From contig JHYJ01000006.1 of NCBI GenBank assembly GCA_000621425.1, positions 248,001 to 312,000 of the forward strand: a stretch of DNA of 64,000 nt, read 5' to 3'. Position numbers and translations under genes: made by a program. Source of the DNA: Lachnospiraceae bacterium AB2028 (GTDB lineage Bacteria > Bacillota > Clostridia > Lachnospirales > Lachnospiraceae). The notes below the pieces were generated by a model. That model was not told the origin of the DNA. It saw nothing but the letters and a program-made list of their open reading frames with translations, and did no database searches. Of the stretch, positions 46,672 through 63,926 are shown in pieces; position 1 is the first letter of the stretch; each line of letters begins with the position of its first letter.

Positions 46672-49392
46672 ATGGTTTCTTTACTGTATGGTCTGCTGGT
46701 ACAACCTATAGAATACCTTATTGAAGTCATTTTTTGGCTTATGTATGGGATATTAGACAATGTCCCTATGGCTATTATTTCCGTGAGTATTCTTGTGAGT
46801 TTCCTTGTACTACCGCTATATCTGCGGGCAGATTCCATACAGGAAGATGAGCGAAAAAAACAGAAACAGATGGATGCCTGGGCGAAGCATATCCGGAAGA
46901 ATTTTTCCGGAGATGAGAGATATATGCTTCAGACAGCATATTACAGGGAAATGCAGTATAGGCCGTTGTACGCTTTAAGGAGCGTACTGCCGTTAATGTT
47001 GCAGATCCCTTTTTTTTTGGCTGCATACCATTATCTGTCGCATCTGGAAATTCTTAATGCCAGCAGCTTAGGGCCTATATTAAGTCTTGGTGAGCCGGAT
47101 TCGCTTATAAAGATAGGAAATATTTCAATACATATACTGCCGGTCCTTATGACGGTTATAAACTGTATTTCCGGTCTGGTATATACTGAAAAGGGTGAGA
47201 TAAAGCAGCGGATTCAGATTTTCGGAACAGCTTTAGTTTTTCTGGTACTCCTGTATGAAAGTCCTTCCGGTCTGGTACTATACTGGACGATGAATAATGT
47301 TTTTTCGCTTCTTAAAAATGTTGTTCAGAAACATGTAAAAAAACCGGGACGACTGCTGTCTATTCTGGCCTGTGTTTTTGCGGTGGTAATTCCTATATGG
47401 CTTGTTTTGTCGGGGCATGGTGCGAGTATTGTACAAGGCCGTGATTATGAGACAATGCTCCTATATCTGATGGTGATAGTGGCCCTTTGTGTTCCTATGC
47501 TGAAAAGGATGGGCGTGTTTGATTTTATATTAAGGATGTCACCCAGGGAAGATGCGGATGTGAAAACATGGCTTTTGATAGCATCTGCATTTGCTGTACT
47601 TATGGGATTGTATATCCCGGTCTCGGTAGTTTTCTCATCTCCGGGAGATTTTGTAAATCTTTATCATTACATTTCACCGCTTTATTATGTTGGCAGAACA
47701 TTCTGTGTTTCAATAGGTGTTTTTCTGGTTTGGGGTGGTGTGATCTGGGTAGTAGCTTCAAAAAAAGCCAGGAATTATTATGTATATTTGCTTTTTGTAA
47801 TGCTGGCAGGCTGCCTTCTTGATTACATGTGTTTTGAGCCGTTTGTCGGTAACTTAAGCAGGGAGTTGATTCTTGCTCTTGAACCTGATTACAACAGGCC
47901 TGTACGTGTGGTAAATATGCTGTTGCTTATTGCGATTCTTGTAGTTGGATGGTTTATCTGGCTGAAGAGTAAAAAAGCTATGCAGATGATGGCTGGAGTA
48001 TTACTCCTGTCACTGTCGGCTGTGTCCTGTTATCATTTTATCAGTGTAGGGAATTCGCTTGGGGAGATAAGGGCGGAGGCCGAACGGGAAAATGAGGATA
48101 TCTACATACGCCTGAGTACTACGGAGGAGAATGTTGTTGTTCTGATGCTTGATCGCATGATGGCGGTGTACCTTCCGTTTATTATGCAGGAAAGGCCGGA
48201 ACTGGAAGCTCAGTTTGATGGTTTTGTTTATTACCCCAATACGGTTGCTACAGGATTATGCACTAATTATGGCTCGCCGGGGCTATATGGCGGATACGAC
48301 TACACTACTTCGGCGATAAATGCCAGAAACGATCTTTCACTTATGGAAAAACATAATGAGGCATTAAGCATTATGCCTAGGCTGTTTAACGAGGCGGGGT
48401 ATAGGGTTTCAGTGTGGGATCCACCTTATGCAAATTACCGTATTCCATCGGATCTTTCATACTTTGATCAGTATCCGGACATTAATGCCCTTCATATGGA
48501 AGGACGGCTGCAGATGCCTTTTGGGCAGGAAAAGTATAAAAAGCAAGTGGAGAGAAACTTCTTCTTTTACAGCGTGTTCAAGGTGATACCTACCTTGTGG
48601 CAGGATGAAGTCTATGATGGCGGCAGTTATATGTCAGTAGAGAGTGTAGCGGACAATCAGACTTTTCTGGATGCATACGCAGTACTGGATTCGCTGCCCG
48701 AATTGACTGTTGCAGAAGATGACCCGGAGGGTTTTTTTCTGATTGCTGACAATAACACAACGCATGAACCCAGGGAAGTTCAGCTGCCGGACTATACGGT
48801 TGTTGAGAATGTTGATAACTCGGCATATTCGGATCTGTATGCGGATAAGATATGTAATGGAAGGATACTTCATTTCTCAAGCGAAGGAGATGGTTTGGCG
48901 CAGTACCATGCTGATGTGGCTGCTATGATGGCGCTGGGAAGGTGGTTTGATGATCTGCGTGCAAAGGGTGTTTACGATAATACGCGTATCATAATCGTAT
49001 CGGATCATGGGGTTCCACGAGAGCAGTTTGCGGATATGATGATAAAAGGCGTGGATACCATGAGCTGTAATGCTTTTCTGATGGTAAAGGATTTTAATTC
49101 TACCGGCTTTAAGACTGATGAAACATTTATGACTAACTGCGATACCCCGGCTATAGCATTTTCGGGGATTGTAGAAAAGCCTGTGAATCCGTATACTGGT
49201 AATGAAATAAACATGGACGGCAAGAAGGATGGTGTTGATATTATGTGGGGGTCGGAAGGTGTTATATTCAACAATAACGGAAATGTATTCCTTCCGCTGG
49301 AAGCCGACTGGTTTCATGTGTCGGGGGATATATATCAGGAAGACAGCTGGTACGGACCTTTTGAAAAAAATGCTGACGGCACAGAAAAGTAA
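46672..49392 (+). CDS. YidC/Oxa1 insertase domain fused to an alkaline-phosphatase-superfamily domain
   Basis: A 906-residue membrane protein eight bases after glyQS, with no strong ribosome site; it may be translationally coupled. Residues about 1-230 match YidC2: the hydrophilic-groove Arg in LPLYLRADS, then SVLPLMLQIPFFLAAYHYLSHL and SPSGLVLYWTMNNVFSLLKN. About 235-460 are further membrane helices. From about 480 is a sulfatase/phosphatase-like domain with LMLDR as first metal Asp, GLCTNYGSPGLYGGY as a candidate nucleophile loop, and VSDHG as second metal site near residue 780. The sulfatase signature CxPSR is absent, so a phosphotransferase or LTA-synthase-like role is likelier (inference). 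A Yip1-like gene follows. I know of no characterised protein with this architecture. Confidence 0.85.
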   Translation: MVSLLYGLLVQPIEYLIEVIFWLMYGILDNVPMAIISVSILVSFLVLPLYLRADSIQEDERKKQKQMDAWAKHIRKNFSGDERYMLQTAYYREMQYRPLYALRSVLPLMLQIPFFLAAYHYLSHLEILNASSLGPILSLGEPDSLIKIGNISIHILPVLMTVINCISGLVYTEKGEIKQRIQIFGTALVFLVLLYESPSGLVLYWTMNNVFSLLKNVVQKHVKKPGRLLSILACVFAVVIPIWLVLSGHGASIVQGRDYETMLLYLMVIVALCVPMLKRMGVFDFILRMSPREDADVKTWLLIASAFAVLMGLYIPVSVVFSSPGDFVNLYHYISPLYYVGRTFCVSIGVFLVWGGVIWVVASKKARNYYVYLLFVMLAGCLLDYMCFEPFVGNLSRELILALEPDYNRPVRVVNMLLLIAILVVGWFIWLKSKKAMQMMAGVLLLSLSAVSCYHFISVGNSLGEIRAEAERENEDIYIRLSTTEENVVVLMLDRMMAVYLPFIMQERPELEAQFDGFVYYPNTVATGLCTNYGSPGLYGGYDYTTSAINARNDLSLMEKHNEALSIMPRLFNEAGYRVSVWDPPYANYRIPSDLSYFDQYPDINALHMEGRLQMPFGQEKYKKQVERNFFFYSVFKVIPTLWQDEVYDGGSYMSVESVADNQTFLDAYAVLDSLPELTVAEDDPEGFFLIADNNTTHEPREVQLPDYTVVENVDNSAYSDLYADKICNGRILHFSSEGDGLAQYHADVAAMMALGRWFDDLRAKGVYDNTRIIIVSDHGVPREQFADMMIKGVDTMSCNAFLMVKDFNSTGFKTDETFMTNCDTPAIAFSGIVEKPVNPYTGNEINMDGKKDGVDIMWGSEGVIFNNNGNVFLPLEADWFHVSGDIYQEDSWYGPFEKNADGTEK

Positions 49393-53303: not shown

Positions 53304-53452
53304 GTGTGAGCATTTTATGTCTTTTTTGTTATTCTGGTTGCGGTAGTTATTGACGGTCATTATAATGTAGTAAGTATACGTGATTGGGATATTATATTTT
53401 GTGCCACATACGTTGTTTTTCGGAACTAAGAATTACGGCAGAAAGAGGGAAT

Positions 53453-54574
53453 ATGCATTACGATTATCTGATAGTTGGTGCCGGTGCATCCGGTGCAACC
53501 TTTGCAAGACAGGTCACAGATGCAGGTAAAAAGGTGCTTGTGATAGATAGGCGACCTTATGTTGCCGGTAATATTTATACAGAAAAGATTGAAGGAATTA
53601 ATGTCCATAAATTCGGTGCACATATTTTTCACTCGAACAGTCGTAGAGCCTGGGAATATGTGAACAGGTTTGCTGAATTTAACCGCTACACCAATTCCCC
53701 GATAGCGAATTACCACGGTGAGTTGTATTCTCTTCCTTTCAATATGCGCACTTTCAATAAAATGTGGGGTGTGGTAACTCCGCAGGAGGCTTATGATGAG
53801 ATTGAACGACAGAAGGCTGCTTCGGGCATCACAGAGCCAAAAAATCTTGAAGAACAAGCTATATCCCTGGTGGGAAAGGATATATACGAGAAACTTGTAA
53901 AGGGCTACACCGAAAAACAGTGGGGACGCCCTTGTACGGAACTTCCGGCATTCATTATAAAGCGTCTTCCTGTCAGACTGACTTTTGATAATAATTATTT
54001 TAATGCACTGTACCAGGGAATTCCTATTGGGGGCTTTACCCGGATGATAGAGAAGATGTTGGAAGGTATCGAAGTAAGAATCGATACAGACTACTTTGCA
54101 AACAAGGTTGAGCTGGATTCTGTGGCGGATAGAATATATTACACTGGAGCCATAGATGAGTATTTTGGATACCGTCTTGGACAGTTGGAGTACCGTTCAC
54201 TTCGTTTTGAGGAAGAGGTTCTGGATATACCAAATTACCAAGGGAATGCCGTGATGAATTACACTGATAGGGAGACCCCATGGACCCGGATAGTGGAGCA
54301 CAAGTGGTTTGAGTTCGGCAAGGATGAGAGTGGCAATGACCTGCCTAAGACTGTAATAAGCAGAGAGTATAGCAAAACGTGGGAGCCGGGGGATGTACCC
54401 TATTATCCGGTAAATGATGAAAAGAACGGAAATCTGTACAGGCAGTATAAAGAGCTGGCAGATAAGGAGAGCAGGGTGATCTTTGGGGGGCGTCTGGGTG
54501 AATACAGGTACTACGACATGGACACGGTGATTGATTTAGCAATAGATTTAGCTGAAAAAGAGCTAAATATATGA
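53453..54574 (+). CDS. glf: UDP-galactopyranose mutase
   Basis: Converts UDP-galactopyranose to UDP-galactofuranose for surface glycans, using reduced FAD. It is 373 residues from ATG 53453 with AAAGAGGG upstream; the earlier in-frame start at 53384 has no site. The FAD-binding motif is VGAGASGATFARQ near residue 8. HKFGAHIFHSN and the conserved KGYTEKQWGRP identify the Glf family, as does SREYSKTW near the end. It implies galactofuranose-containing envelope polymers. The partner glycosyltransferases are not in the window. Confidence 0.95.
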   Translation: MHYDYLIVGAGASGATFARQVTDAGKKVLVIDRRPYVAGNIYTEKIEGINVHKFGAHIFHSNSRRAWEYVNRFAEFNRYTNSPIANYHGELYSLPFNMRTFNKMWGVVTPQEAYDEIERQKAASGITEPKNLEEQAISLVGKDIYEKLVKGYTEKQWGRPCTELPAFIIKRLPVRLTFDNNYFNALYQGIPIGGFTRMIEKMLEGIEVRIDTDYFANKVELDSVADRIYYTGAIDEYFGYRLGQLEYRSLRFEEEVLDIPNYQGNAVMNYTDRETPWTRIVEHKWFEFGKDESGNDLPKTVISREYSKTWEPGDVPYYPVNDEKNGNLYRQYKELADKESRVIFGGRLGEYRYYDMDTVIDLAIDLAEKELNI

Positions 54575-55554: not shown

Positions 55555-58254
55555 TTAAGGAGCTGTATTTTTTGACAAATTAGTGCGCACATGTCTGTTT
55601 AGTAATGAAATGATGATTATTAGGAAAAGTATGGCTACCCCAATAAGGCTTATTATCAGTCCTTCCTTCGCAAAGCGCGCTGTGTATTTTAGTTCGATTT
55701 CATGGTCTCCTTCGGGCAGTTTCGCGCCGAGGAAGGCATTTTCGACTGTGGCTATGGTTTCAATCTCCTTGCCGTCACAGTAAATGCTCCAACCCGCATC
55801 ATAGGGGATGGTGGTGAAGAGTATTGGCCGGTCTTTTGTCACGTGGACGATGGCTTTTATGTCGGATGACCGGAAGGAAGAGATGACCGGTGCTGTGGCT
55901 GTCAGGTCGTCACAGATTTCTTTTAGGTTGTTATCCTTTTTATATTCGTAAAGTAGTATAGACTGGCATTTGTCTGATGCTACACCAGGGTTATCAGAAT
56001 AAATGCATATACTATCATATATCTGATCCGGAGATGCGCCTGTGATGTACTGATTGCTTTCCGGGCTTAATGTACAGCCTTCGACAATGCTGCCCATGGC
56101 AGGCTGTACCGGGGTCCCGGAGCCATTCGTGGCACATAGAATTTTATTGGCAGGCTTATTTTCCATAGACTGTTCCTGATAAAAGCAGGCATAGAAAATT
56201 CGTGACTCATCGTGCGGGACGGCAAAGGTATAGTAGGCGTCATTAGACAATGTGCTTTTTCTTAGAAAACAAATCTGGTCAGATGATATAGCTATCTCCG
56301 AGTTATATCCACCGGTCAGTACATCATCGTAGGCCATGGGTGTGAAGAAATGGCAGTCCTCACCATAGAGTGAACTTATCAGGGTTTCTTGATTGATGAA
56401 GGGGTCTTTTACTGCAGAATAGTCAGTTATATTCCTGCTACACATAAATAGCAGCGGAAGGTAAGTGTCGGACTCGGTTGAGACCCTTGCGGATATATTG
56501 GAATCATTTTCCTGTAATTCATTTAAAACGTGATATTTTGTTCCTGTGAAGGCGTATGTTACCGGAGTGTAGCCTATGTCATAGATTTCACGGTTCGGTG
56601 CTGCAATTCCTAAATTGTGAAGTGAATATCTGAGGTTGTATTCATCAGATGATGAAAATGTATTAAGTCCTGCATAATTAAACCATGCAGGGGCATTGGC
56701 GTTGATGTCGCTTTCTACGCTGATACGATAAAAAGAAGTGTCCTTAGCCTGAATATTCTTTATTGATGGCCCCTCGGTAATCCAGTTGTCGAGAGCTGCC
56801 TCATATGCATTACCGCGGTTGTGGCCGGTTACATAAATATTTGTAACTAGTTCGCTGATGAATAGTATGGAAAATAGTATCCGTAGCATAAGTTTTACGA
56901 TATGGTGTCCTGTAGTTTTATGTATAGCAATAAAGATTATCAAATATGCTAACAGGAACAGGGTGTTTACGACAAACATGATGTTTGAATTGCCGGCTTG
57001 ATCTGCAGAGTATCTTCTCTCACATAGCGGGATCATAATGGAATAGAGGATGATCAAACTGATGGTATATATGGTGTAGGCATTTTGCGGAATGGTGTCA
57101 GCTTTTTTTTCAAGAGTGTATGCGGATAGTGATATTAGTATGAAACATATGCAGAATGAGAATCTGTAGCCGTAATAATTTGGATAATCAAATGCGTGCA
57201 TAAACCTGTATAAGGGAAGAACGAGCATGCATACCAGATAATATGCAATCAGGATTGCGGAAAATATTTTTGCTTTTACAGCAACTGTTTTCGATAGGAA
57301 AAAAAAGGGGAACAGTAGCAGTACCGGCAGCCCACAATAAAGTGCAGGAACGCTATTATTTATTCCCTGAAATGATCCTATGAAAAAGGCGTTGATGATA
57401 CCTGGTAAAGTGGCTGAAAGCTCTCGGAAACCTTCGTTATCCGGTGCCATATGTGAAAAAAGGAAATATGCGGCAGGAATGTGTGTAGCACTACATAAAG
57501 CCGTTGCGAGCAGTACTGACATAACGAAGATGGACAATCTTTGCATGAAAAACTTTAGGGTAAATTTTGTGTTGCGAACGAAGAAGGAAATGATAAATAT
57601 TAAAAATTCGAAGATTCCGGCAATAAATCCCATATAAAAATTGGTAAAGAAAAGATATGCAAAAAACAGTGTGAGCAGTACAAAACGGTAGGGTAAGATG
57701 TTTTTTTCGGAAATACGATCCTTTATGTGCCCGGATGCCATAAGTGTAAAACAGGTAAGAATTGGGAGTATGTATATGGTGTCGAGCCACATTATATTTA
57801 TGTACATTCCGACAGAAAAACCGCTCAAGGCGTAGCATAGCGAAAACAGTATTGACAATGGGGAATTCAGGTCAAGAGCTTTTTTTTCATAGTACTGGAA
57901 TGATGCTGCGGCGAGTGACAGCTTTAACATTATCACAGTTGCTGTTATTACTGTCTCAGGCACGAAATCAATGAGATAGAGCAGGTTGAAAGGGCTCAGG
58001 CAGTAGTAGGCGTAGGTGAGTGCGGTGCCGGAACCTAGATATAGAGAAAATGAATACCAGTAGTCGGTTTTTCCTGTTATGGCGGAAAGAAAAAGTTTGA
58101 TAAAAGGCACATATTGGTGAACAAGGTCTCCCCAGAGGATTGTATAGTTACCGGAGCCTGTTATTCCAAGAAAAGAAAGTCCGGCCAAAAAGAGGATAGC
58201 TGTTAGCAATGCAGAAAAAACAGGGTATGTTTCGGATTTAAATAAGCGTTTCAT
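55555..58254 (-). CDS. YfhO-family membrane protein (third of a tandem trio)
   Basis: An 899-residue GT-C-like integral membrane protein with about 12-14 hydrophobic helices in its first 480 residues, a large extracellular segment (about 480-850) and a final helix near 865-885. In Bacillus and Listeria, YfhO proteins add sugars to lipoteichoic acid outside the membrane. It carries the C-terminal pattern ILFTTIPYDAGWSIYCDGKEIETIATVENAF, shared with the other two copies. The start codon overlaps the stop of the upstream copy by four bases (58251-58254). It is the last gene of the operon. Confidence 0.85.
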   Translation of the reverse strand: MKRLFKSETYPVFSALLTAILFLAGLSFLGITGSGNYTILWGDLVHQYVPFIKLFLSAITGKTDYWYSFSLYLGSGTALTYAYYCLSPFNLLYLIDFVPETVITATVIMLKLSLAAASFQYYEKKALDLNSPLSILFSLCYALSGFSVGMYINIMWLDTIYILPILTCFTLMASGHIKDRISEKNILPYRFVLLTLFFAYLFFTNFYMGFIAGIFEFLIFIISFFVRNTKFTLKFFMQRLSIFVMSVLLATALCSATHIPAAYFLFSHMAPDNEGFRELSATLPGIINAFFIGSFQGINNSVPALYCGLPVLLLFPFFFLSKTVAVKAKIFSAILIAYYLVCMLVLPLYRFMHAFDYPNYYGYRFSFCICFILISLSAYTLEKKADTIPQNAYTIYTISLIILYSIMIPLCERRYSADQAGNSNIMFVVNTLFLLAYLIIFIAIHKTTGHHIVKLMLRILFSILFISELVTNIYVTGHNRGNAYEAALDNWITEGPSIKNIQAKDTSFYRISVESDINANAPAWFNYAGLNTFSSSDEYNLRYSLHNLGIAAPNREIYDIGYTPVTYAFTGTKYHVLNELQENDSNISARVSTESDTYLPLLFMCSRNITDYSAVKDPFINQETLISSLYGEDCHFFTPMAYDDVLTGGYNSEIAISSDQICFLRKSTLSNDAYYTFAVPHDESRIFYACFYQEQSMENKPANKILCATNGSGTPVQPAMGSIVEGCTLSPESNQYITGASPDQIYDSICIYSDNPGVASDKCQSILLYEYKKDNNLKEICDDLTATAPVISSFRSSDIKAIVHVTKDRPILFTTIPYDAGWSIYCDGKEIETIATVENAFLGAKLPEGDHEIELKYTARFAKEGLIISLIGVAILFLIIIISLLNRHVRTNLSKNTAP

Positions 58255-61037
58255 TCTGCGACTCCTGAGTCGGATTCCTTGATATTCGGCTTAACGGATG
58301 TATCGTGTTGGCTGGAAACGGATCTCATTATCTGTTTTACGATGATGATAGCAATAAGGATAACCAGTGCGGCTATGCTTATTATGAGCCCTTCCTTGGA
58401 AAATTTTGCATAGTATTTAAGTTCTATATCGTGGTGCCCTTCAGGTAGTACTGCGCTTAGAAAAGCATTGTCAACCGTGGCCATGGTTTCAACTTCTTTG
58501 CCATCACAGTAAATGCTCCAGCCCTCGTCATAGGGAATGGTGGTGAATAGAATGGGTCTATCCTCGGTAACGTCCACTGTGGCCTTTATGTCGGAGGAGC
58601 GGAATGACGTAATGATTGGTGCTGTGGCTGTCAGGTCGTCACAGATTTCTTTTAGGTTGTTTTCTGTGGGGTAGGAATAAAAAAACATTGCCTGGCAACT
58701 GCCGTCTGATAGTTCGGGTTTATCCGTGTAAATAGCGATTTCATCATAGGTGAGGTCGGTGTCTATTTCGTTAAAATGCTGGTAATTGTTTGAGTTAAGT
58801 ATATCTCCTGCAAATATCCCACCGTGTCTTAATTCGGCTGTTTCCCACCAGCCGTCGGGAGCACAGATTACATATAGGGTGTTTCGTACCGCCTCTCCCT
58901 TTTCCTGATAAAAGCAGGCGTAGAAGATTGACTCATCATCGTGCGGACGTACAAAAGAATAATATAACGTGTCGGACAGAGAACTTTTCTTTTTCCAGAA
59001 GGTGACCTGGGGATTAATTTGCATTTCCGTATTGTAGCTGCCTGTAGTCAGGGAATTGTAGTCTATGGGGATGAAAAAATGCTGTTCACTGCCGGTGAGA
59101 CGGGACATTAACTGTTCCTGGTTCAAAAAGGGGTCTGCGTCAGGCCGGTAATCCAGAATTTCATCATTTGACATAAAGATTATGGGGAGACAAGCGTCAA
59201 GCTTTTCTATGGTTGGCATAATGATTTCATTTGTGGAGACAGTTTCTGGCGAGTTTTCTAACTCATCCTTTTCTGAATACTCGATGATTCTGTATTTAGT
59301 ACCTGCAAACGCATAGGTTATAGGTGTGTATCCGGACTCGAGTATAGCTCTGTTTGTCGCATATATGCCCAGATTATAAAGCGCACATCGGAGATTATAG
59401 TCATCAGATGATGAAAACGTGTTGAGCCCTGCGTAGCCGAACCATGAAGGCGCATTGGAGTTTGTCTGGTTCATTACGCTTATGCGGAAGAAACCGTCGT
59501 CATTTGATTTTATTTCCTTTATGCAGTCGCCTTCCGTGAGCCACTGTTCTTCTGCCAGTTCATTTACGGGGTCACCGCGGTTTATTTCTGTAATGTGAAA
59601 ATTTACAAGTATTTCCAAGCATAGGATGGTTACAAAGGAGACTGTTAACAACCGGATTGCCTTCTTTGATTCAGCTTTCTTATGAAGTAAAAATACAAGA
59701 AGATACAGCAACAAAAAAGCAATGTTAATGAACATCAGATTGTTGGTATTTACAAGCTGAAAGGATTTATAACGCAGTATGCATATGGGAATCATGATTG
59801 AATAGAGTACTATCAACAAAATTGTATATATTACATAGCTTTTTTTGCTGATTTCCTTTGCGTGCTGGACCGTAACTGCGGCCATCGCACATAGCATAAA
59901 TGTGATACAGAATGAGAATCTGTATGCATACCAGTTAGGAAAATCAAATGCATGCATGAATTCATACAAAGGGAGTAGCAGCATGCACAGCAGGTAGTAA
60001 ACTAATGCAATGGCAACAAGGGTTTTTTCTCTGAAGGATATGGTTCTGAGCTTAAAGAAAAAAGGCGTCAGTAACAGTACCGGCAGTGATGAATATAGGA
60101 ATGGTGTACTATTGTCGAGACCGGAGAATGAACCTATGAAAAATGAATTTATAATGTCAGGAATTGTCGCAAAAAGTTCTTTGAAACCTTGATTGTCCTG
60201 GGCTAAATGTGCATACAGAAAATATGCTGCTGGAATAAGTGCTGCGGCGCATAACGCTGCTGCAAGCAGAACGGATGCGGCATATTTAGCGGAACTGGAC
60301 AGGAATGCAACGCGGGCATTATTTTTTTTATATCTAAAGAAAGAGAGAATAAAAATTATTGTTTCAAAAATTCCTACCATGAATGCTAAGTAAAAGTTAG
60401 TGATAAAGAGGTAGGCGTAGGTAAGTGTAAGTGATATGAACGGAAAAAATTCGCCAGTGTGTCTTTCTGATTCGGAAATACGGGATGATTCCTTGTCAAC
60501 CTTTGTGATCCCGCCTGCAGCCTTCATGGTCAGATAGGTAAGTATCGGGAGTATATATATGGCGTCCAGCCACATTATGTTGGTGTACATTGCAGCAGTG
60601 TATCCGCCCAGCGTGTAGCATATGGAGAATGCTATAGTAAGCGGGGAAGAAAGTCTGAGTGCTTTTGATTCAAAAATCTGAAAGGTTGATGCGGCAAGCG
60701 CAATTTTTGCCGCAACAAGCACTATTGTCATAGTTGACTCAGGAATACCTTCAAATAGGTATAGGAGATTGAAAGGATTTAGGCAGTAGTATGCATATGT
60801 TAATGCTGTGCCGCTACCAAAATAGTTGGAGAAAGAATACCAATAGTCCTCCTGGCCTGTTAGGACCCGGAGAAACATTTTTATAAAAGGGATATACTGC
60901 ACGTCAAGATCCCCGAAAAGAATTATATTGTTTCCGAAACCGATTATGCCTATAAGGGCAAGTCCTGCTATGAAAATAAGGGCAGAAAGAAGTGCGGAAT
61001 ATAAGGGATACATTCTTTTTGATAATATATATTTCAT
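58251..61037 (-). CDS. YfhO-family membrane protein (second of a tandem trio)
   Basis: A 928-residue paralogue of the flanking genes with the same topology: about 12-14 helices, a long extracellular domain and a C-terminal helix. It is closest to the 55555-58254 copy: both share EICDDLTATAPxI-SFRSSDIKA and nearly identical GWSIYCDGKE segments. A charged tail (VSSQHDTSVKPNIKES) ends the protein. It overlaps both neighbours by ATGA, so the trio is translationally coupled. Confidence 0.85.
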   Translation of the reverse strand: MKYILSKRMYPLYSALLSALIFIAGLALIGIIGFGNNIILFGDLDVQYIPFIKMFLRVLTGQEDYWYSFSNYFGSGTALTYAYYCLNPFNLLYLFEGIPESTMTIVLVAAKIALAASTFQIFESKALRLSSPLTIAFSICYTLGGYTAAMYTNIMWLDAIYILPILTYLTMKAAGGITKVDKESSRISESERHTGEFFPFISLTLTYAYLFITNFYLAFMVGIFETIIFILSFFRYKKNNARVAFLSSSAKYAASVLLAAALCAAALIPAAYFLYAHLAQDNQGFKELFATIPDIINSFFIGSFSGLDNSTPFLYSSLPVLLLTPFFFKLRTISFREKTLVAIALVYYLLCMLLLPLYEFMHAFDFPNWYAYRFSFCITFMLCAMAAVTVQHAKEISKKSYVIYTILLIVLYSIMIPICILRYKSFQLVNTNNLMFINIAFLLLYLLVFLLHKKAESKKAIRLLTVSFVTILCLEILVNFHITEINRGDPVNELAEEQWLTEGDCIKEIKSNDDGFFRISVMNQTNSNAPSWFGYAGLNTFSSSDDYNLRCALYNLGIYATNRAILESGYTPITYAFAGTKYRIIEYSEKDELENSPETVSTNEIIMPTIEKLDACLPIIFMSNDEILDYRPDADPFLNQEQLMSRLTGSEQHFFIPIDYNSLTTGSYNTEMQINPQVTFWKKKSSLSDTLYYSFVRPHDDESIFYACFYQEKGEAVRNTLYVICAPDGWWETAELRHGGIFAGDILNSNNYQHFNEIDTDLTYDEIAIYTDKPELSDGSCQAMFFYSYPTENNLKEICDDLTATAPIITSFRSSDIKATVDVTEDRPILFTTIPYDEGWSIYCDGKEVETMATVDNAFLSAVLPEGHHDIELKYYAKFSKEGLIISIAALVILIAIIIVKQIMRSVSSQHDTSVKPNIKESDSGVAE

Positions 61038-63820
61038 CTTGTTTCTCCATCTGCCGCGGTTTCAGTTTCGTCATTTCCAATAGCGTTTTGGTCTTGTGTA
61101 TTGTTTGTTTTTTTTCTGGAGCTTAGGAAGATTGCTAAAAATATTATTATGGCGACCGTGCTGATTACACTGCCGGCGAATGCATAAGGTGGCTCATACT
61201 CGAAGACGATTTCATGCTGCCCCGGAGATAGGGCGAGGGTGCAGAAAGTGTCATCCACTGTCACATAAATCTTGCTGGGAATGCCATCCACATATGCGTG
61301 CCACCCTTTGTCATAAGGGATGGTAGTGAATAGAAGAGGCTTGTCCTCTGTGGCGGTGACAATTCCTTTTATATAGGTATCGCTATATGAATCTACCTGC
61401 ATGGTGCCAGTGGATAAAATGTTATATGCTTCCGTGAGAACCTGGTCATCATAGTATGCGAATCTTATAGCACTTACGGCATAGGATCTGTAACCATTGG
61501 TATTAACATAGAATGTCTGATATAAGCGATCCTCCGGTTCATCGTGTTTTTTTTGTGTATTGCTCTCAGCTCCGGCAGCGGTTTTATTTGCTTCAAATAT
61601 GGCCCCGCTTGCGATGGTGGGTTCACATTCGAAACCGATTCTGTTATTTCGCATGATGTAGGGTGCAGGTGAATTGAAATAGGTCCCGTTTAATGTATTA
61701 CAATAAACGTAAGGCGTTTTATTGCCGGAAACCGGAATGGAATAGGTAATCCAGCCCATATTGATACTGTCTGTCATCATATCAAATGCGGTGTCCTCGC
61801 CTAACTCATATACATGTGTATTAAAGGTTTCCAATTCTATGACGTCATCAGGAATACTTTCATAGACTGTGACTTCGTGCCCAATCATACTACTCAGTAG
61901 GTTGTTAGTGTTGGTAAAGGGGTCGTCATATGATTCGTAGTAGGCAATATCAGGGCTTACCATATACGCAATAGGCAGTGCTCTTTCGTTGGTGGTGACT
62001 GATGCGTGAGTACCATCTGATGCATCAGGAATGTCGATGATATATTTGACAGAAAAGAGCATATCCATCGGTGCCGTGCCACTGATGTCATAAAGCATAT
62101 GGTAAGAGTTTCCTATTCCGAGGTTGGAAAAAACATAACGCTGTTGGGTGTCCTCGAAGGAGGCGAATGATGTGAGGGTGTTTATGCCGAAGAGCGATGC
62201 TCCGTTGAAACATTTCTCACCGTTTACCCTTACCCTGTAGAAACTTTTATCATCAGTGTGCAGTTTATTTACGGCAGAAGATTCTTCACTATACCAAAAT
62301 TTGAAATCTTCTGCTTTTAAGCGGGGACCGTTATCAGCAGAACTTCCGGCAAATGATCTGAGGGAAATCGTGCTGCTGATGAGTAGTTCCAATGCAAGTA
62401 GTGCCAGTGCGGCGAAGGGGAGGTACTTCAAACATCTGTCTTGGATTTTGCCGGTGTTTTTTGTCTGATGCAGGCCTATGTAGATTATTCCCCAGAGGAA
62501 CATGAATACAGCATTTACTACAAGGTAAGTATCGGAAACAGGTGCAATTCCGGTTATGTCATTGAATATCACGAGAAATGCATAGACCAAAAGAAGACAT
62601 CCGATCATTATCCACAGAGTTTTATTTGTTATCTTTTTCTTTTCACTCCATACTTTTGCGGCCATGGAAATAAGCATAAATACAATGCATGGAGAAAAAC
62701 GGAATGAATAGTGGTTGGGATTATCAAAAGCATGCAGGGCTGCATATATAGGCATGATTATAGTTCCGCAGAAATAAAAGACCAATAGTATTGCGGTACA
62801 AACTTTTCTTAAGAAGGAAATGCTGTCGGTAAAAAAGTAAAAGGGGCTTAAAAGAAGTATAGGTAATCCACAATAAATATAGGGCGTTGAACTATACAGG
62901 CCCTGTGCACCGCAGGCATAGAGGGCACTGAAAATGTCGGGAATGGATGCGGAAAGCGTGATGAAAGAATCGGATGCTCCCTTTAAGTGGTTTAGCAGGA
63001 AAAAAGCTGTTGGAACCAAGAGTGCTGCACATAATGCGCTGGCTAAGACTACTGCGGAAAAAAAGGCGACAGTTTTCTTTATCATGTTCACAATGTGTTT
63101 TTTTACGTCGGCCTGATTGTCTGACCAGTCTTCGGCACAAATCGTGAATGCGACAAAGCTAAGCGCGGAGAAAATGCCGATGATATAGCCCATGTAAAAA
63201 TTTGTTATGAACAGGTAGGTGTAGCAAAGGGTAAGGCTGAGAAAACATCTCTTAGTAGGTTTATGTACAAATTTTGTTAATACAGTTATTAAAATGGGTA
63301 GAACGTATAGGCTGTCGGCCCACATGCAATGCATACTCATGACTACTGCCCAAGAGCAGAAGGTATAACACAGTGCAAAGAAAATCGAAGAAAGCCGCTT
63401 GGTTTTTAATACATTTTCCGAATAATATGAAAAAGATGCTGCGGCAAGCCCGGCTTTTAATGTCGCTATAATATGGGTTATGGTGATTATTGATGCAAAG
63501 GGGACCAGATAAAGGAGGTTAAAGGGGCTAAGCGTGTAATATACATATGTAAGAACAGAACCGGATCCCCCATAAAGCGAAAATGAATACCAGAAATCCT
63601 GATCGCCCTTAAGAACCCTCATAAAAGATTCGATGAAAGCGATGTACTGATCAAAGTTGTCGCCCCGGCATATGCTGCCACCACCGGGAAAAAGAAAATC
63701 GTTTATTGCGAGCAGGATTGCAAAAAGAATGCTGCCGATAAAAAAAGAAGACAAAGGGGTTAACATTCTGGAATAATCCTGTTTTTTATTTTCGGACGGG
63801 ATGGTCGTATTATCTGTCAT
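61034..63820 (-). CDS. YfhO-family membrane protein (first of a tandem trio)
   Basis: A 928-residue paralogue from the ATG at 63820, which has AAGGAG upstream; the frame extends to 63880 but those residues lack a ribosome site. Topology is as in the other two copies. It is more divergent from them in the extracellular half, including longer inserts and different C-terminal sequence (GWHAYVDGIPSKIYVTVDDTF). It ends in an Asn/Asp/Glu-rich charged tail. It is the promoter-proximal gene of the three, which run leftwards. Confidence 0.85.
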   Translation of the reverse strand: MTDNTTIPSENKKQDYSRMLTPLSSFFIGSILFAILLAINDFLFPGGGSICRGDNFDQYIAFIESFMRVLKGDQDFWYSFSLYGGSGSVLTYVYYTLSPFNLLYLVPFASIITITHIIATLKAGLAAASFSYYSENVLKTKRLSSIFFALCYTFCSWAVVMSMHCMWADSLYVLPILITVLTKFVHKPTKRCFLSLTLCYTYLFITNFYMGYIIGIFSALSFVAFTICAEDWSDNQADVKKHIVNMIKKTVAFFSAVVLASALCAALLVPTAFFLLNHLKGASDSFITLSASIPDIFSALYACGAQGLYSSTPYIYCGLPILLLSPFYFFTDSISFLRKVCTAILLVFYFCGTIIMPIYAALHAFDNPNHYSFRFSPCIVFMLISMAAKVWSEKKKITNKTLWIMIGCLLLVYAFLVIFNDITGIAPVSDTYLVVNAVFMFLWGIIYIGLHQTKNTGKIQDRCLKYLPFAALALLALELLISSTISLRSFAGSSADNGPRLKAEDFKFWYSEESSAVNKLHTDDKSFYRVRVNGEKCFNGASLFGINTLTSFASFEDTQQRYVFSNLGIGNSYHMLYDISGTAPMDMLFSVKYIIDIPDASDGTHASVTTNERALPIAYMVSPDIAYYESYDDPFTNTNNLLSSMIGHEVTVYESIPDDVIELETFNTHVYELGEDTAFDMMTDSINMGWITYSIPVSGNKTPYVYCNTLNGTYFNSPAPYIMRNNRIGFECEPTIASGAIFEANKTAAGAESNTQKKHDEPEDRLYQTFYVNTNGYRSYAVSAIRFAYYDDQVLTEAYNILSTGTMQVDSYSDTYIKGIVTATEDKPLLFTTIPYDKGWHAYVDGIPSKIYVTVDDTFCTLALSPGQHEIVFEYEPPYAFAGSVISTVAIIIFLAIFLSSRKKTNNTQDQNAIGNDETETAADGETR

Positions 63821-63926
63821 GTTGTTTCTCCTTAGGTTGATAAACATAGTATTGCAAAGGAAATTATATAACATGTACATTAAAATAACAATTTAATAAA
63901 ACAGAGCGTCATTGGATAATTATTAC

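Follow-up and report, generated by a model that had tools for sequence, protein, structure and literature searches.

A YidC domain fused to an alkaline-phosphatase-superfamily enzyme, with a TagF-like partner: a candidate system for decorating envelope glycans in Clostridia

Why would a membrane protein insertase be built into the same chain as an enzyme of the alkaline phosphatase superfamily? The question is raised by a gene of Lachnospiraceae bacterium AB2028 (46672..49392, + strand) in the window, by which we mean the whole 64,000-nucleotide stretch of DNA that was analysed. The gene is a single intact ATG ORF of 906 aa, and Pfam together with an AlphaFold2 model (alignment with 100 relatives; pLDDT 93, pTM 0.89) gives the order of its parts as a YidC/Oxa1 domain, helices TM6-12 and an alkaline-phosphatase-superfamily domain. 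The YidC/Oxa1 domain (60KD_IMP, PF02096; residues 33-218; 46768..47325, +) comprises TM1-TM5 and a cytosolic hairpin and scores 73 bits against a cut-off of 35 (E 3.6e-20). A profile of the N-terminal part also matches solved YidC structures in the PDB (E 3.6e-14), and the model retains the five-helix core and the hairpin (helices 31-77, 80-93, 98-123, 155-171, 177-194 and 199-221); the NCBIfam model TIGR03592 (yidC_oxa1_cterm) is matched below its cut-off (79.2 vs 84.3 bits). The Sulfatase family (PF00884) is found at residues 487-785 (E 4.2e-7; 30 bits vs a cut-off of 25). Both domains stand above cut-off in one intact frame, so the fusion that a first-pass annotation made from the sequence had proposed is real, and the extra membrane helices and the LMLD and SDHG motifs that it listed are all present.

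Between the two domains lie TM6-TM7 (residues 225-279; 47344..47508, +), which are missing from variants of roughly 850 aa (22 of the 100 relatives; short variants occur also in A1), and TM8-TM12 (residues 297-472; 47560..48087, +), five modelled helices that run up to the outer domain. A mixed alpha/beta domain begins at residue 479 of the model, and PF00884 and fold matches assign residues 484-896 (48121..49359, +) to the extracytoplasmic catalytic domain. The C-terminus of canonical YidC lies inside, so that, after seven more helices, the catalytic domain of the fusion comes to lie outside. The AlphaFold2 model has 12 helices and places the catalytic domain outside as well, and this topology is unchanged in the relatives of about 850 aa that lack TM6-7.

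In an alignment of 100 fusions, no variation was seen at D494, T531, H698, D778, H779, K806 and D807. From this pattern, the window fusion is predicted to carry the Thr nucleophile and the acidic and Asp-His metal ligands of LtaS/EptA-type transferases, with Asp494 (codon 48151..48153, +) and Asp778-His779 (49003..49008, +) as putative metal ligands, Thr531 (48262..48264, +) as putative nucleophile and His698 (48763..48765, +) as a further predicted active-site residue. By the general pattern of the superfamily, T531, D494, D778 and H779 are the putative counterparts of the LtaS nucleophile and metal ligands. In the model, Thr531 opens the helix 531-540, as would be expected of a Thr-nucleophile transferase. 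The C/S-x-P-S-R formylglycine signature of sulfatases is absent, in agreement with the first reading of the sequence: position 530, a Cys in the window fusion, varies among the 100 relatives, whereas Thr531 does not. In fold searches, LtaS, LtaP, PbgA, MCR-1, sulfatases and phosphonate monoester hydrolases all matched the catalytic domain, and Z was about 20 for many members of the superfamily.

An assembly or sequencing artefact joining two genes, which the first-pass annotation had raised as a concern along with a lack of independent homologues, is ruled out: the architecture of the window fusion recurs in an orthologue with 92% identity, in six paralogues and in many relatives, and its independent homologues number in the hundreds. 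A scan of GTDB species genomes gave at least 571 candidate loci, the best of which come from Lachnospiraceae, Ruminococcaceae/Oscillospiraceae, Saccharofermentans, Mogibacterium, Solobacterium, Coriobacteriales and others; most are MAGs, but isolates such as Lachnospiraceae bacterium XBD2001 and XPB1003 and Ruminococcaceae bacterium AB4001 and YAD3003 are among them. In the best 80 of these at least 571 loci, a YidC domain was present on 94 of 105 catalytic ORFs; nine of the other 11 were cut at locus edges and two were views of one split gene, so that none of the 105 paired a YidC-less catalytic domain with intact upstream sequence. The split gene, in a MAG, has its YidC and catalytic parts in overlapping ORFs (L089, 1821-2885 and 2846-4585), either through a frameshift or as a true split. 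Copy number varied in a sampling of the genus, where 18/24 genomes had the fusion. AB2028 itself has seven fusions: one at 214 kb of contig C4, that of the window, one at 56 kb of C5 and four within 242-263 kb of C5. The copy on C4 is flanked by two CotH-kinase proteins (L049, 5591-14005; C4 near 210.6-219 kb). Another fusion directly adjoins 26 of 108 fusions, and at L083, L099, L119, L141, L186 and L188 two or three diverged copies stand in tandem, in some cases interleaved with TagF-like genes.

The AB2028 genome also holds one canonical YidC of 453 aa beside yidD- and rnpA-like ORFs (oriC), the separate copy that had been suggested as a check. This excludes the possibility that the fusion is simply a diverged canonical YidC serving as the sole insertase. 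In the tree, fused YidC domains are set off from canonical YidC as a single clade (support 1.0) on a long stem, and many positions part the two, namely F78, E82, F114, N164, Q182, A187, K215 and N216. One earlier claim did not survive the alignment of fused and canonical YidCs: the supposed groove Arg is absent, as Ser43 (46798..46800, +) aligns to E. coli R366, and the 100 fusions have Asn (71), Ser (28) or Gly (1) there and a basic residue in none, compared with Lys or Arg in 27/31 canonical clostridial YidCs. Loss of the basic residue as a mark of the fusion was, however, weakened by two exceptions, in that the genome's own canonical YidC has Tyr and three-domain proteins described below keep Lys; given that Tyr, the absence of the groove residue alone cannot part fused from canonical YidCs. 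Tyr stands at the groove site in the canonical Lachnospiraceae YidC at L050 (5719-7080), and it recurs in L211. Within the fusions, mean pairwise identity was 0.54 for the YidC part, 0.46 for the catalytic domain and 0.28 for TM8-12. As the most conserved region, the YidC part is evidently under constraint and has some specific job.

We next consider the genes that accompany the fusions. Clustering of all neighbours gave one dominant family, present in 46 loci, whose members are about 430 aa long and start LYIDPGTGSMLFTILIG. Pfam assigns it to PF04464, CDP-glycerol:poly(glycerophosphate) glycerophosphotransferase, and we refer to it here as TagF-like. The TagF-like gene directly adjoins 46 of the 108 fusions, with a 4-base overlap in ten. 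At the level of whole genomes, a class sample (341 genomes) contained the fusion in 11, the TagF-like gene in 11 and both in 10, that is, a TagF-like gene in 10/11 fusion genomes vs 1/330 others (Fisher P 2e-17, with shared ancestry ignored). The association was similarly tight in a family sample (150 genomes; fusion 6, TagF-like 7, both 6; 6/6 vs 1/144) and in a genus-weighted sample of relatives (40 genomes; fusion 18, TagF-like 16, both 16; 16/18 vs 0/22). Pooling the distinct genomes gave 31 with the fusion, 30 with the TagF-like gene and 28 with both, a co-occurrence that carries no correction for kinship; no TagF-like gene was detected in the fusion genomes G001, G014 and G425, and two genomes of the pooled samples have the TagF-like gene without the fusion. 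In AB2028, seven fusions stand against a single TagF-like gene. At L219 (4529-10442) a TagF-like gene lies with TelA, a PF10112 protein and an EAL-domain protein and with no head-group genes; gene sizes at L223 are similar.

In some proteins the partners are joined in one chain. Two proteins of 1202 aa have the order Sulfatase, YidC, Glyphos_transf (L062, 1435-5043; L226, 621-4229), and one of 1265 aa has the order YidC, Glyphos_transf, Sulfatase (L227, 4478-8275). These three come from sister genomes, and their YidC domains group apart from those of the window type, in a clade of their own. By the topology of YidC, either domain order would leave the TagF-like part inside, the sulfatase-like part outside and YidC between them. 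The three-domain fusions are thus independent evidence that the YidC, TagF-like and sulfatase-like parts act together.

What these parts act on is suggested by the remaining neighbours. Head-group genes, of the kinds that make CMP-aminoethylphosphonate or CDP-choline, were found in 20/88 loci (e.g. L070, L176, L182 and L184), 11 with phosphonate and 9 with choline genes. All 11 phosphonate loci hold the fusion/TagF-like pair, and the phosphonate genes seen there are PEP mutase with cytidylyltransferase, phosphonopyruvate decarboxylase, AEP transaminase (AEPT), Fe-ADH or a fused PntC-AEPT; at L176 the run of genes is fusion, TagF-like gene, AEPT, PEP mutase and decarboxylase. Choline genes accompany the pair at six loci and the fusion alone at three. 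Within the locus stretch examined, 33/88 loci lacked TagF-like and head-group genes alike. In the class sample, PEP mutase was present in 9/11 fusion genomes vs 19/330 others.

The only PF04464 gene of AB2028 (C9:41998-43299) lies inside an aminoethylphosphonate operon composed of AEPT, PEP mutase, nucleotidyltransferase, phosphonopyruvate decarboxylase and the TagF-like gene, in which AEPT (420/361 bits), PEP mutase (408/320) and phosphonopyruvate decarboxylase (464/313) exceed their NCBIfam equivalog cut-offs. Since the TagF-like gene sits in this operon and PEP mutase co-occurs with the fusion, AB2028 probably makes CMP-aminoethylphosphonate, and the fusion probably works with it. The complete operon (L169, 5717-11494; C9 near 38.7-44.5 kb), TagF-like gene included, is unlinked to the window fusion and to all six other copies.

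The surroundings of the window fusion are those that the first-pass annotation listed, with glf and YfhO identified by Pfam and a ugd-like ORF found close to the fusion. The glf gene (53384..54574, +; PF03275, 1.1e-80) encodes UDP-galactopyranose mutase and may be an acceptor-glycan gene, judging from context only; another glf stands two genes upstream of a fusion at L087. Three tandem YfhO-family membrane proteins (PF09586) occupy 55555-63880 of the window on the minus strand. Across the AB2028 genome, the fusion copies sit in separate glycan clusters with glycosyltransferases, ABC exporters and a GT11 enzyme. That one TagF-like enzyme serves many fusions in separate glycan clusters suggests a shared lipid donor and acceptor-specific outer transferases, and the acceptor probably differs from fusion to fusion.

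On the evidence of architecture, conserved residues and gene linkage, we propose, with a probability of roughly 55%, that the fusion carries out the last two steps, export across the membrane and transfer, of a system by which envelope glycans are decorated with phospho- or phosphono-head-groups. A head-group would first be activated as a CMP or CDP conjugate, 2-aminoethylphosphonate in AB2028 and phosphocholine in others. The TagF-like enzyme (PF04464), cytosolic and membrane-anchored, would then move the head-group onto a membrane lipid, both the chemistry and the donor lipid being presumed; alternatively, enzymes of this type may use lipid-linked glycans as direct substrates. The YidC-like domain, which would have given up its specialisation in protein insertion, would offer its groove as a path for the charged lipid through the bilayer. 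Lipid scrambling in vitro, via the insertion groove, has been shown for YidC and other Oxa1-superfamily insertases (PMC10491306), and it is this activity, taken with the conservation of the YidC part, that leads us to propose that the domain moves a lipid-linked head-group. Finally, the outer domain would presumably load the head-group on Thr531 with the help of its metal site (D494, D778, H779) and deliver it to a glycan at the cell surface. In this way a single, shared TagF-like enzyme may supply several fusions, each in a different glycan gene cluster. We hold more tentatively, and at slightly worse than even odds, the wider proposal that the YidC fold was turned at least twice independently into a flippase or scramblase of lipid-linked head-groups, handing cytosolic products of a TagF-like enzyme to an outer transferase of the alkaline phosphatase superfamily, and that this is the missing export and transfer step in aminoethylphosphonate and phosphocholine decoration of surface glycans in Clostridia.

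The best-surviving alternative, though an unlikely one in our estimate, is an LtaS-type polymerase, which would make polyglycerol-phosphate or a similar polymer from phosphatidylglycerol, with the TagF-like enzyme priming and YidC recycling diacylglycerol or supplying phosphatidylglycerol. The predicted Thr nucleophile and metal-ligand pattern resemble those of LtaS, the fold matches include LtaS and LtaP, PF04464 takes its name from CDP-glycerol transfer, and a cytidylyltransferase-like gene lies upstream of the fusion/TagF-like pair at L122. However, the pair sits in aminoethylphosphonate and choline operons rather than glycerol operons, and a lone LTA polymerase would not be expected to occur as numerous divergent copies per genome, spread over separate glycan clusters. 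The earlier idea of an insertase-like fold reused in an envelope-polymer transferase thus stands in part: the fold is indeed built into a membrane-bound extracytoplasmic enzyme with a predicted Thr nucleophile, among envelope-glycan genes, but LtaS-type polymer transfer is too narrow, because the TagF-like partner and the genes for activating aminoethylphosphonate and choline speak for phospho(no) head-groups as what is transferred, and not for lipoteichoic acid synthesis of the classical type.

Somewhat less probable still is that the YidC domain keeps a protein role, inserting or holding a partner (the TagF-like enzyme or a glycan polymerase) as a dedicated assembly factor rather than moving lipid. 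Retention of the cytosolic hairpin and five-helix core and the strong conservation of the domain would suit such a role, but a canonical YidC is already present in the genome and the three-domain proteins have the partner built into their own chain; the lack of the basic groove residue in 100/100 window-type fusions also speaks against it, as weak evidence either way. Least probable is that YidC is a passive anchor or dimerisation module for a hydrolase that would trim glycans at the surface, as a glycan phosphatase, a phosphodiesterase or a sulfatase-like enzyme, since, despite best fold scores that include sulfatases and phosphonate monoester hydrolases, a passive anchor should not be the best-conserved part, the sulfatase Cys/Ser signature is absent and the fusion is tightly coupled to a biosynthetic transferase and CMP-head-group genes.

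If the head-group reading is right, these genes offer a three-part candidate, with strong genomic linkage, for the attachment of activated phosphonates to surface glycans, one that is testable with few genes. Steps of phosphonyl tailoring past CMP-AEP were described as unknown in 2019 (PMC6697681). The reading also suggests a natural use for lipid scrambling by YidC (PMC10491306), with a protein-insertion fold moving lipid-linked head-groups, and it provides a provisional name for a multicopy family of gut and rumen bacteria that, we expect, automatic annotation would likely call 'membrane protein insertase' or 'sulfatase'. A literature search, conducted largely without subscription journals, found no description of a YidC and sulfatase-like fusion or of its TagF-like partner; public annotation databases such as InterPro may already include the domain pair.

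Compared with known systems, the fusion resembles LtaS/LtaP and EptA/MCR-1 in its layout, in which an alkaline-phosphatase-superfamily domain faces outward after the membrane helices, and in its predicted Thr nucleophile and comparable metal ligands. Those enzymes, however, draw on bulk phospholipids and have no YidC domain, whereas the fusion has a fused YidC, a linked TagF-like partner and linked CMP-head-group genes. PbgA/YejM is the best full-model Foldseek match, covering model residues 295-905 (TM8-12 and the outer domain), but the ligands of PbgA are LPS or cardiolipin and head-group transfer is not among its known activities, and TM8-12 alone gave no significant fold match, with YejM, MCR-1, PbgA and EptA at Z 4.0-4.7 among noise. 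With YidC/Oxa1/SpoIIIJ the fusion shares PF02096, the five-helix core and the cytosolic hairpin, and it differs from them in lacking the basic groove residue, in forming its own clade, in being multicopy and in lying away from the rnpA locus. Lastly, the Lic (phosphocholine) and Pnt (phosphonyl tailoring) systems follow the same logic of CMP/CDP activation (PMC6697681), and PEP mutase, Ppd, AEPT and PntC/LicC-type genes adjoin the fusion/TagF-like pair at some loci. In the known Lic and proposed Pnt schemes the final LicD-like transferases act inside the cell, whereas the system described here would instead use a TagF-like enzyme and a YidC-fused outer transferase.
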